From the NCBI GenBank assembly GCA_003023745.1, contig PXYV01000005.1, positions 1 to 64,000 of the forward strand: a stretch of 64,000 nt of DNA, given 5' to 3'. The stretch comes from Sulfobacillus acidophilus. Lineage in GTDB: Bacteria; Bacillota; Sulfobacillia; Sulfobacillales; Sulfobacillaceae. Shown here piece after piece: positions 49,801 to 54,591 of the stretch (position 1 is the first letter of the stretch; each line of letters opens with the position of its first letter). Under the pieces are notes generated by a model. It searched no databases. It saw nothing but the letters and a program-made list of their open reading frames with translations, and had not been told where the DNA came from. Position numbers and translations under genes: made by a program.

Positions 49801-50310
49801 ATGCGCAATGCGCTATGGTGGCAGCGCTATCCCATGCGGGTGGCCTGGCCGAAAGTGCTTTGGGCGGGGATAATGTTAGGACTGCTAGGGGCTTTGGATC
49901 AGTGGCTGCATGTGGGTTTGATCTTTCTTGTCCCGCCATTTGCGGCGACCTTGAGCCTCCTTATCTACCTTCCAGAAAAGTCCGTGGCACAGCCGATTCC
50001 CGTGGTCGTGGGAAGCACCTTGGCATCCGCCTTAGGCACCTTGGTGGCGTTCATCGCGCACGGCCCACTGGTTGCCGCGCTGCTTGCCCTGGTGTTGCTG
50101 TGGTTATTGCCGCGTTGGGGCATCTATCACCCGCCAGCCTTGGCGTTAGCCATGTATCCGTTACTGCTGCACCCCGGGGTGTGGTTTCCGGTGATTGTGG
50201 TGTTGCCATTCACGGTGACTGCAGTCGTATCGTATGCGGGACTAACACGTGTTCTATCCCAGGGTCCGCGTTATCCGCTGGATGGAGCTACGGACCAGGG
50301 ATCGTGTTGA
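49801..50310 (+). CDS. HPP family membrane protein
   Basis: FLVPPFAATLSLLIYLPEKSVAQPIPVVVGSTLASALGT...YHPPALALAMYPLLLHPG. Confidence 0.75.
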   Translation: MRNALWWQRYPMRVAWPKVLWAGIMLGLLGALDQWLHVGLIFLVPPFAATLSLLIYLPEKSVAQPIPVVVGSTLASALGTLVAFIAHGPLVAALLALVLLWLLPRWGIYHPPALALAMYPLLLHPGVWFPVIVVLPFTVTAVVSYAGLTRVLSQGPRYPLDGATDQGSC

Positions 50311-50352
50311 TCAAGGCGATATGCGATTTTGCATCGGAAAGGAGTTTCATGC

Positions 50353-50931
50353 GTGCCTGACCTCATTTGGCCTGTGTACCTGAGCCTGGTGAACAGTCTC
50401 CACACCGATTGGATTCCCGCTGACCCGTTGTTGTCGGTGCAGCCATTAAGGGCGCTTTCCTGGTGTCCTCCGTGGCCGTGGTACCCTAAGGACTTGCCCC
50501 ATTGGGGCATCTCGCCTGCCCCGGGCCCGGTGGCCCGGGTGTGGTTTGCCGGAAATCCTCAAGGCCAGGAGCGCCGTGTCTTTGATGTCGTGGTTGAGGC
50601 GGTGGGCCGAAAGCGGCGATTGCTTCATCCAGTTACGGAGGCGACATTGGCACCATTGGGCAAAACGCACATTGCGGTGGCGGTGCTGACGACGCCGGGG
50701 TGACCGCTTTGTGCCGAGGCCGTGCGCCTGGCCCACGCCATGGCACTAGCTAGCCCAGCCATTACCAGTGTGGCGATCATGCTTGATGCCAGACCGTCAT
50801 TGACGGGGGCCCTGCAAATTCAACGTGTTCCGGTGGTCTTTATCGAAGGACAGCGTCTGGATGGACCGATCACGGAATGGGTTTTGGCGCAACGCCTACT
50901 TCAAGTGAGGGGGAGTTCGGATGCACCGTAG
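50353..50931 (+). CDS. Protein disulfide oxidoreductase-like (two thioredoxin folds) with in-frame TGA at the first position of CxxC; candidate selenoprotein
   Basis: Frame continuous across TGA at 50701-50703: ...HIAVAVLTTPG[TGA]PLCAEAVRLAHAMALASPAITSVAIML...IQRVPVVFIEG...; AAAGGAG RBS upstream of GTG 50353. Confidence 0.65.
50713..50732 (+). promoter_or_regulatory. SECIS-like hairpin downstream of in-frame TGA
   Basis: GCC-g-AGGC-CGTGC-GCCT-GGC: 7-bp stem with one bulged G and a 5-nt loop containing G 19 nt after the TGA. Confidence 0.45.
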
Positions 50932-50940
50932 ATCGCTCGC

Positions 50941-52017
50941 TCATCTGTTGGCAGCGGGAAGATGAGCGCGATGCTGAACGGCTGAGAAGCCGCGTAACGC
51001 CAGCATGGCGCATAGTTCAGCGATAAGATAAAAGCGTGCGGTCGGATCGATGATGTGCAACAGCAAGCGGGTGGATGTCTGCGGCGAGGACATGACGAGC
51101 GCGGCAATAGCCCAGATACCGACAACCAGCGTTGTCACGGCCAACCGAGTCAAGCGGCCCATCGGCCTCCAGGTAAACCCTAAACGAATATGCACCATCA
51201 AACTCAGCGCAACGCCAAGCGTCCAACTGAAGACCACGACGATGCCAATGCGTGACAAGAAGAACGTGCTATCCAGCGTGACATGGTCGAGAGCAAACAC
51301 TACGGGCCAGCGCAAGTGCGTCAGAGCTTGTGGACCTAAGGATCCCATGACGGCGGCATACAGCATGGCTAACATCACCCAAGGAATGACAATCGCCGTG
51401 ACCCGCCAGGCTGGGGTGGGCTCGCTTGCTAATTTTCGGGCCACCAGTCGAATGGTCGTGCCAATAGGAACACCAATGTAGGCTAAAATGCCGACTCCTT
51501 GAAAAATGGGCATTAACAGGATCTGGTCGTTGGGGGCAAGGGGGCGCAGATGTGTCACGTTGACCACCGCCAGCAATAGAATGAAGGCGGTGCCGAAAAT
51601 GAGAATGGGGACCCAGAGCATGGCCATTCGCCAGGCGGTTTGGGGTGCGCGATTGACGGCCAACCCGACGATAGCGGTTAGGGGTAAAATCAGTGCAGCA
51701 CGCGGTGTGTCAAAATAGAAAAAGGTTTGCAACATCGCGGCCAATTGGTTCAGCATGACGGCGTCGATGGCTCCGGTGACAATCAGCGCCACGCCGTCGA
51801 GGATGCGCGTGGCCGAGTGCCATATTCCGGACGGCTGTGGTGAAGGAATTAATAGCGTCAAGACCACGGTCCACACCAACGCCAAGACCAAAGCGATATC
51901 AGCATTTTGACCAGCCACCAGAACGACGTGAAGCGGCCAGACAAATAGGCCGCTACCCAGGACGCTGGCGGTTGTAATCCACAATAGGGCGGTTCGGGTT
52001 AATCCGGGACTTTTCAG
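50941..52017 (-). CDS. Spore germination protein GerAB-type (endospore permease)
   Basis: APC-like multi-TM protein downstream of gerAA- and gerAC-like genes; start uncertain (ORF opens at 52170; family homology appears to begin near ALKSPGLTR). Confidence 0.82.
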   Translation of the reverse strand: MKSPGLTRTALLWITTASVLGSGLFVWPLHVVLVAGQNADIALVLALVWTVVLTLLIPSPQPSGIWHSATRILDGVALIVTGAIDAVMLNQLAAMLQTFFYFDTPRAALILPLTAIVGLAVNRAPQTAWRMAMLWVPILIFGTAFILLLAVVNVTHLRPLAPNDQILLMPIFQGVGILAYIGVPIGTTIRLVARKLASEPTPAWRVTAIVIPWVMLAMLYAAVMGSLGPQALTHLRWPVVFALDHVTLDSTFFLSRIGIVVVFSWTLGVALSLMVHIRLGFTWRPMGRLTRLAVTTLVVGIWAIAALVMSSPQTSTRLLLHIIDPTARFYLIAELCAMLALRGFSAVQHRAHLPAANR

Positions 52018-53105
52018 CGCAAGACTCCTTCTTCCCTGAGCGTAAAATGAACCCAGCAGGTTAAAGACCAATGGGACCATCCGCGGTCCGATGCCCAGGC
52101 GGCATCCGACCAGATAGCGGAACGATGCCATCCCATCGGATCGGTGTCCGTTCGCTGAGCCTCTAGCCAAGCGGCCTGGACATAAGACTGAATGCGGTTG
52201 GCGACCTGCCTTTCGACTTGTCGGTCGAGCCCAATCGCATCGGACCCCGACACATTGCCGAGAATGACGCCCGAATAGTCCAAGTGAACCGATGCTGCGA
52301 TCGTGGATTGGCGGTGGTGGATGGCCAGGTGGCTGCGCCCCCGAATTAATCCAACGACGAGCGGCGTGTGGTCAAGCGTGACGGAAATGTTATCCCGAAG
52401 GAGCCGACCGGTAAGGTAGGACCAGCCGATGGTGGCTTCGGGCGACCAGCTTACGGGATAGGGTGAACGCAGCACCAACAGGCGCGTTAAGGTAAACTGA
52501 CCCTGATGGGGATGAACCCAAACCACGCTTGGCGTGATGCCCGGGGTAACGATTTCGGACCAGACCCGCCACCCGCGACCGGGCCAACGAATTCCCTGGC
52601 ATCGACAAGTCAAGGCATTGTACAGTCCCACTTCTGGCACAACTTCGACGGGAGGGATTAATGACACGACGGCGGCAGCGTTGGGAGCTCCGACAATCCA
52701 GGTGGTCAGCACGAATCGCCCCGAATCCGCCATCGTCATCAAGGTCGAGCGCCAGATGCGGGTTGGCAGCGCACTTGACAGGCAGACAATCCGGACTTGT
52801 CCGAGGTAGAGTGTGCGGCTTTCGCGCCGTTGCGCGGAGAGTAATGCGGATAGAAGGTTTGGCGCCGTGACGTGGATGGCATAAAATTCTTGGCTTTGGG
52901 GTGTGGTCGCCAAACTGGCGGCGGTGGTCGTCACGTTGGGAAAGGTAAACGTATAGTTGGCCTGTCCAACCCCTGGCGCTGGATCGATGCCAATCGCGGC
53001 CACTGCTGCGCGCATTTCCACGGGATGTTGATCCCAGCATCCCGATAAACTCAAGGCGAGAAGACAGAGTCCGATGGCACGCAGTTTGCCCCGTTTCTTA
53101 CGCAT
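52014..53105 (-). CDS. Spore germination protein GerAC-type (Ger(x)C lipoprotein)
   Basis: LSLSGCWDQHPVEMRAAVAAIGID lipobox and GerC start; operon context. Confidence 0.88.
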   Translation of the reverse strand: MRKKRGKLRAIGLCLLALSLSGCWDQHPVEMRAAVAAIGIDPAPGVGQANYTFTFPNVTTTAASLATTPQSQEFYAIHVTAPNLLSALLSAQRRESRTLYLGQVRIVCLSSALPTRIWRSTLMTMADSGRFVLTTWIVGAPNAAAVVSLIPPVEVVPEVGLYNALTCRCQGIRWPGRGWRVWSEIVTPGITPSVVWVHPHQGQFTLTRLLVLRSPYPVSWSPEATIGWSYLTGRLLRDNISVTLDHTPLVVGLIRGRSHLAIHHRQSTIAASVHLDYSGVILGNVSGSDAIGLDRQVERQVANRIQSYVQAAWLEAQRTDTDPMGWHRSAIWSDAAWASDRGWSHWSLTCWVHFTLREEGVLR

Positions 53106-54591
53106 CGTCTGTCCACCTAAGGTCAGTAGCCCGGCCCTCGGTTAATCGCCGACGCAGCGCACGCCATGGCACGCGCCACGTGAAATTTTCCCAGTCCTTG
53201 GGGCGCCATGGACTCAGTGGACTCAAATACGGCGTGCCGAAGGACGTTAAACTGACCAGTTCGACAGACATGGCGAGCGTGACCAGCATGACGCCATAGA
53301 TCCCGAGCACAAAAGCTCCGACCAGCACGCCCCAGCTCATGAAACGCCAGGTGGCTAATAGCTCGTAGGTGGGAACACTAAAGAGGCTCAGAGCAGTAAA
53401 GGTCATCAGCACGATGATTTGCGGGCTGACGAATCCCGCTTTGACGACGGCTGTGCCGACGACGATGGCTCCGACGGTTCCCAGCGTGGTGGCCAGCACC
53501 TTCGGCAAACGCACGGCTGCCTCGCGCAACACTTCAATCACTAAAATCATGACGACAACCTCCACGAACGGAGTAAAGGGCAGCCCTGTATGACTCCCTG
53601 CAATGATGTTGAACAAGGTGGGGGAAATCAGGTCGGGATTGACTTCGGTCAAGGCGATGTACCATCCGGGGAGCATGACGCCAAAAGCCCAGGCTAAGAG
53701 GCGAATAATGCGGATAAAAGAGGCGTCATACCAGGCTGCGTTATAGTCTTCCGACGTACGATAGAAATCACTTAAGGTGGCGGGCACAGTTAAGACGAAA
53801 GGGTCGCCTTGTATCGAAAGCGCAACCTTGCCACTTTGGAGTTGGAGAGCGACCCAGTCGACACGTTCACTATAGCGGACGGTGGGGAAAAGTGCCCACG
53901 GATGATCTCGGATAAGGCTGCCTAAACGCGTCGCATTGGTCGCACTATCGAGGGTTAGTGAGCGGAGGCGATCGCGCACACGGGTAATCACCTCTGGCGA
54001 AGCTAAACTTTCGCAATAGATCAAATCGCAGCATGTCGGGAACCGCAGGCCAATCGACAACCGTTCCACTACCAAGTCGGGAGTAGCCAGGCGCTCTCGA
54101 ATCTGCGCGATCTTGACATTCTCGAGTTCCACAAAGGCGTCTTGGGGGCCGCGAATCGTTTGTTCGGTGACGGGCGACTCGATGTCGCGGTGGGGTGGTT
54201 TTGCGAAGTCTATCAACACGGCTCCGGGTTTTTTGGCAGTGACAATCGCCGTTTGACCGCGCCATACGCCCGAAATGACACGACTCCAGAGTTGCACCGG
54301 GCGGGACGAATGCCCAATGTTGTCCAGCGTGTCTGGGGAGTCCGACTTAAGAAATGTGGTCAGCTCCTGGCTGTCCACTAGACCATCGATCCAAACCACT
54401 AGACGCGACCCGGTTTCTTGGACGACGAGGTCAGGAGCATGGGTGGCGTGTTCTCGAAAAAGACGGGCCAGGGTGCGAATGTCCGTGAGATTGAGTGCTT
54501 GTTGGGCGACTTGCGATTGGATGTGATGATGCCATGCGACGAGCACCGCATGAAGACGCTCTATGTCTTGGGATAAGGATTCGATGGGCAC
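53098..54591 (-). CDS. Spore germination protein GerAA-type
   Basis: GerA family: IVTAKKPGAVLIDFAKPPHRDIESPVTEQTIRGPQDAFVE, C-terminal TMs. Confidence 0.92.
   Translation of the reverse strand: MPIESLSQDIERLHAVLVAWHHHIQSQVAQQALNLTDIRTLARLFREHATHAPDLVVQETGSRLVVWIDGLVDSQELTTFLKSDSPDTLDNIGHSSRPVQLWSRVISGVWRGQTAIVTAKKPGAVLIDFAKPPHRDIESPVTEQTIRGPQDAFVELENVKIAQIRERLATPDLVVERLSIGLRFPTCCDLIYCESLASPEVITRVRDRLRSLTLDSATNATRLGSLIRDHPWALFPTVRYSERVDWVALQLQSGKVALSIQGDPFVLTVPATLSDFYRTSEDYNAAWYDASFIRIIRLLAWAFGVMLPGWYIALTEVNPDLISPTLFNIIAGSHTGLPFTPFVEVVVMILVIEVLREAAVRLPKVLATTLGTVGAIVVGTAVVKAGFVSPQIIVLMTFTALSLFSVPTYELLATWRFMSWGVLVGAFVLGIYGVMLVTLAMSVELVSLTSFGTPYLSPLSPWRPKDWENFTWRVPWRALRRRLTEGRATDLRWTDDA

Follow-up and report, generated by a model that had tools for sequence, protein, structure and literature searches.

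A probable selenoprotein of the AhpF N-terminal domain/PDO type, with a single UxxC site, in Sulfobacillus acidophilus

We analysed a 64,000-nucleotide stretch of a Sulfobacillus acidophilus contig (PXYV01000005.1; referred to here as the window) and identified a gene, interrupted by one in-frame TGA, which we hold with high confidence to encode a selenoprotein. The UGA at 50701-50703 would be recoded via SelB under the direction of a hairpin, giving a product of the AhpF N-terminal domain (AhpF-NTD)/protein disulfide oxidoreductase (PDO) type. This TGA is very probably read as selenocysteine (Sec, U) at the redox active site. The gene and its surroundings comprise the following features:

49801-50310, plus strand: HPP-family membrane protein gene (PF04982, 1.9e-15), 42 nt upstream of the selenoprotein gene
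50340-50344, plus strand: Shine-Dalgarno-like AGGAG, 8 nt 5′ of the GTG start, from the sequence
50353-50931, plus strand: gene for the predicted Sec-containing AhpF-NTD/PDO-like protein (intact frame, orthologue architecture, AlphaFold2 model of the read-through product)
50701-50703, plus strand: TGA, probable selenocysteine U117, residue 1 of UPLC (column conservation, TGC/TGT elsewhere, the Sec machinery of the genome)
50710-50712, plus strand: TGT, Cys120, putative resolving cysteine of UPLC, invariant in the subfamily
50715-50731, plus strand: candidate bacterial SECIS hairpin (RNAalifold and covariation), kept in TGA genes
50827-50832, plus strand: Val159-Pro160, conserved cis-Pro loop, invariant in the alignment

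The read-through product has 192 residues, running from the GTG start at 50353 to the TAG stop at 50929-50931, and the TGA is the sole interruption of this frame. Around the site it reads ...VLTTPG-U-PLCAEAVRLAHAMA...RVPVVFIEG, with TGA translated as U, and the residues after VLTTPG-U are PLCAEAVRLA. Sequence and frame agree with the first-pass annotation, which had seen the TGA as replacing the first catalytic Cys of CxxC, had put the ORF ending at the TGA and the ORF from GTG 50722 in one frame, and had called the ribosome-binding site good. Of the residues that are invariant in the family alignment, about half are located 3′ of the TGA; for Val159-Pro160 we assume the role of the cis-Pro loop from general knowledge of the thioredoxin (Trx) fold. 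As TGA serves as a normal stop elsewhere in this genome, for instance at 50308-50310 where it terminates the HPP gene just upstream, there is no general code change. A promoter and terminator scan of the region gave nothing useful; a perfect GC-rich palindrome, CCCGGGCCCGGTGGCCCGGG (window 50520-50539), inside the coding sequence 5′ of the TGA was flagged as terminator-like, but within chance.

A pseudogene or a sequencing error, in which TGA arose from a Cys codon by mutation or miscalling, leaving a dead gene or one that in fact encodes Cys, would need one base only, and some orthologues do have TGC or TGT. However, the gene was found in 7 of the 8 genomes of the genus, the eighth being 59% complete, and all seven have TGA at the site; six of these are other species of the genus. 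These relatives include Sulfobacillus harzensis DSM 109850 (contig JABBVZ), the remaining named records being metagenome-assembled genomes of Bacillota. Since the identical TGA is present in independently sequenced genomes and separate assemblies, including that of the cultured S. harzensis strain, a sequencing error is excluded, and a strain-specific mutation or error is refuted by the TGA being common to several species. The first-pass annotation had named close relatives that all have Cys as a refuting result; instead, close relatives carry TGA.

In eight pairs of Sec orthologues, dN/dS 3′ of the TGA was about 0.1-0.2, purifying selection after the TGA was no weaker than before it, and amino-acid identity was higher 3′ than 5′. 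The dN/dS and identity values indicate that the downstream part is translated in this frame. With this selection, the Sec machinery of the genome and a distribution of Cys forms as expected for Sec/Cys exchange, a dead or miscalled gene is scarcely credible, and we retain the selenoprotein.

A search across the class, covering 154 genomes, found the high-scoring members of the subfamily in the same order. Its orthologues mostly have TGA, with TGC or TGT in G101, G102, G115, G118 and G098, so that the in-frame TGA is conserved and other orthologues have Cys. Among all PDO-type homologues gathered, the site codon was TGA, TGC or TGT and never one for Trp or Arg. A lone GAC in the column (locus L186) was rejected as an off-target alignment; L186 also has a proper TGC match. 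By parsimony, the Sec/Cys label changed 17 times on a quick, partly unresolved tree with long branches, 12 of these changes being forced by well-supported branches.

The source genome, a 3.68 Mb draft of 89.6% completeness, has the complete Sec machinery that the first-pass annotation had proposed to look for: SelA (537.5 bits), SelB (347 bits against a cut-off of 242; its ORF is full-length, 629 aa), SelD (348 bits; its gene also contains an in-frame TGA, in SGUGCK) and tRNA-Sec (74.8 bits, anticodon TCA, UCA in RNA). SelB and tRNA-Sec were also found in nine comparison genomes. Sec formate dehydrogenases were reported for every Sulfobacillus genome studied (PMC4378227), and the Sec-peroxiredoxin PrxU of S. 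thermotolerans was detected by proteomics (PMC7409299).

SelA was present in 74 of 77 genomes with the TGA form versus 7 of 13 without it (Fisher p 2e-4), as counted by hand among the matches listed. The TGA-bearing exceptions without SelA are G096, G059 and G124. The first two both carry SelB and tRNA-Sec, and the absence of SelA there is therefore probably an assembly gap; the third is 71% complete. G101 and G102, which belong to another genus of the same family (g3) and are 96-97% complete, are without SelA, SelB and tRNA-Sec, and their site residue is Cys both in this gene and in the full-length PDO paralogue. Apparently, genus g3 lost Sec decoding, and two of its gene families changed from Sec to Cys accordingly. 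The order is thus a natural experiment: in the genus lacking SelA, SelB and tRNA-Sec, all copies examined encode Cys, which allows a direct comparison of the Sec and Cys versions of an enzyme.

These data also bear on whether the UGA could be a true stop, with a short N-terminal main product and the rest made from GTG 50722 or by non-specific Trp/Arg read-through. The downstream ORF does start with an in-frame GTG, and some ribosomes always terminate at UGA. Yet GTG 50722 lies 3′ of U117 as well as of C120, and the first beta-strand of the C-terminal domain is encoded 5′ of the TGA, so a true stop would split the active site. Exchange with Cys alone, which tracks the Sec machinery, and a hairpin specific to TGA genes (described below) argue in the same direction. 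This alternative is very improbable, and Sec insertion remains the preferred reading.

Bacterial SECIS (bSECIS) elements are hairpins shortly after the UGA with a small apical loop that has a G in its first two bases. In the window, the stem is formed by 50715-50720 with 50726-50731 around the loop CGTGC (50721-50725); the hairpin spans 12-28 nt after the UGA, the loop begins 18 nt after it, and 50716/50730 is G-G in this species and unpaired. With the T of TGA numbered 1, pairs 16-30 to 20-26 close a 5-nt loop, NGUNN. RNAalifold, unaided, recovered the same hairpin from 25 TGA orthologues and added a sixth pair, 15-31. The pairs vary between sequences: 18-28 is G-C, U-A, A-U or C-G, 19-27 is G-C, A-U or G-U, and 16-30 is C-G or G-C. 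In the hairpin alignment, 92.8% of cells are paired. The covariation of 0.381 compares with 0.150 ± 0.031 after shuffling (none of 500 shuffles reached the observed value) and at most 0.119 in slid controls. Several covarying bases fall on synonymous positions, for example third positions of Arg and Leu codons.

All four core pairs were formed in 92% of 111 distinct TGA genes versus 26% of 35 Cys genes, the sequences being related to one another and many of the Cys genes being other paralogues; the synonymous-codon permutation null gave 79%, with a maximum of 82%. The folding energy of the whole region, measured against synonymous recodings, gave a weak difference (mean z -0.6 in TGA genes and +0.34 in Cys genes). 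The pair-by-pair test separated TGA from Cys genes, but the whole-region energy test did not clearly do so. Rfam, at lax and gathering thresholds, returned no SECIS family match at the locus. With its 5-nt NGUNN loop and covarying stem, the structure has the bSECIS form; it is a candidate hairpin of bacterial SECIS type, maintained in TGA genes and decaying in Cys genes.

The AlphaFold2 model of the read-through product, built from 11 sequences with Cys substituted for Sec, had a pLDDT of 92.7 and a pTM of 0.90. Its top PDB matches in Foldseek were AhpF N-terminal domains and archaeal/Aquifex PDOs (TM 0.73-0.76), and its closest solved relative by sequence is the Aeropyrum PDO 2hls (E 2.4e-7). 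From this model we confidently predict a double Trx fold of the AhpF-NTD/PDO type with a single active site; AlphaFold2, Foldseek and the alignments all gave two tandem Trx-like domains, the second of which carries (U/C)xxC. The N-domain is shortened and without a conserved CxxC in the subfamily. In place of CxxC it has W41 and W43, invariant in seven genus sequences, and it carries its own motif, PWPWYPxxLPHWG. Pfam gave glutaredoxin-like matches only, in the C-domain, and a PHROGs search with the protein gave no useful match.

The earlier description of the protein as PDO-like therefore holds for the double Trx fold, but not for a canonical two-site PDO, since the short N-domain without CxxC brings it nearer to the AhpF N-terminal domain. 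The archaeal/Aquifex PDOs (1a8l, 1j08, 2hls, 2ayt) share the fold at TM 0.73-0.76; canonical PDOs, however, have two CxxC sites, whereas the N-domain of the window protein has none. The AhpF N-terminal domain (1zyn, 5h29, 6il7, 4xvg; TM 0.75-0.76) is also a double Trx fold and, like the window protein, has its only active site in the second of the two domains. The window protein differs from AhpF in being free-standing at 192 residues, with no fused FAD/NAD(P)H-binding thioredoxin-reductase-like part, in having Sec for Cys and in an identity of 17-18%. Bacterial Sec-thioredoxins and Sec-glutaredoxins also have UxxC with an N-terminal Sec (PMC13188914, table 1), but they are single-domain and their kinship is at the fold level only.

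The first-pass annotation knew of no described Sec-PDO of this type, but Sec forms with UxxC were already predicted as "Homolog of AhpF N-terminal domain (Grx-like domain protein)", TIGR02187, and the 2006 survey listed the family in Carboxydothermus (an example is ABB15282.1) and Symbiobacterium (PMC1794560, PMC9312934, PMC13188914). A literature search under the name Sec-PDO found nothing relevant, the known family being filed as an AhpF N-terminal domain homologue; NCBIfam currently names TIGR02187 'PDO_seleno_TRX'. As in this family, the window protein has two domains, and its Sec is the leading residue of a UxxC motif in the C-terminal Trx-like domain. It differs in its own N-domain, described above, and in a score of 62.1 bits, far below the cut-off of 185, with positions 86-201 of 209 matched; the full-length paralogue of its own genome at C1 (UPYC) reaches 181 bits. 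In the tree, it forms a separate branch beside the full-length Sec-PDO paralogues of the same genomes. Given the score below cut-off and the separate branch, it apparently represents an undescribed Sulfobacillales subfamily of a known predicted selenoprotein family. This adds a well-supported selenoprotein subfamily to those of acidophiles from acid mines and hot springs, with a gene that standard annotation would probably split or cut short.

Other PDO-type genes were observed in the same genome. Locus L032 (G000:C1:89753-90367) has TGA at UxxC in TPTUPYCP, L047 (G000:C123:5044-5358) has a very divergent TPTUAFCAQ, and a fourth paralogue, L042, has CPHS. The window gene, L032 and L047 thus make at least three PDO-like selenoprotein candidates, and several PDO-type selenoproteins are possible within a single genome. 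A thioredoxin-like ORF (G000:C83:3685-3918; L054, 1471-1845 minus strand) has an in-frame TGA in ALFTAAW-U-PHC and is a candidate for a further selenoprotein, a Sec-thioredoxin. Full-length Sec-PDOs (TPTUPYCP) occur widely throughout the class (loci L094-L193), far beyond the two cases of the 2006 listing.

The computed evidence covers UGA conservation, Sec/Cys exchange, the machinery, the hairpin, selection after the UGA and the fold; Sec insertion itself, the substrate and the reductase are inferred. SelB and Sec-tRNA(UCA) would recode UGA 50701-50703 to selenocysteine, directed by the short hairpin just downstream, inside the coding sequence. The C-terminal domain would then present U117-P-L-C120 and the cis-Pro loop, beside a shortened N-terminal domain without an active site. 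By analogy with Trx-fold and AhpF families, Sec117 would most likely attack disulfides or else act on oxidised peroxiredoxin or on persulfide substrates, Cys120 would resolve the intermediate as a selenenylsulfide, and a flavoprotein reductase may then reduce it. Fold and neighbours, the only guides here, suggest general disulfide or peroxiredoxin reduction as the most likely function.

The HPP gene and the selenoprotein gene are likely on one transcript, and an HPP gene lies directly upstream of the orthologue also in G109 and G110 (tblastn synteny, Pfam). Other neighbourhoods raise a possible persulfide role, in which the selenoprotein would act specifically on persulfide or sulfite, as a Sec persulfide reductase, and not in general disulfide/peroxiredoxin reduction. 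MBL-fold hydrolase and rhodanese genes precede the orthologue in S. harzensis and in one further species (G005). S. harzensis, G115 and G116 have TauE/SafE sulfite exporter genes close to it, and in S. harzensis it is followed by a gene for a pyridine nucleotide-disulfide reductase. These neighbours hint at a sulfur or persulfide redox role, though the context is not constant. They vary between genera, such a neighbourhood is absent from the window, which has the HPP membrane protein instead, and from other genera, and the MBL protein is below the cut-off of every persulfide-dioxygenase model. We therefore consider the specific persulfide role unlikely, if worth keeping in view. Rather doubtful is a Sulfobacillales-specific single-site Sec-PDO with a dedicated role in sulfur-oxidising acidophiles, e.g. 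a Sec persulfide/peroxiredoxin reductase, distinct from the full-length paralogues.

On the other side of the gene, a spore germination cluster (window 50941-54591, minus strand) converges on it:

50941-52170, minus strand: membrane protein without a match
52014-53105, minus strand: GerAC
53098-54591, minus strand: GerA

In L087 and L090, where the orthologue is a Cys form, GerA/GerAC-like genes likewise lie upstream of it.
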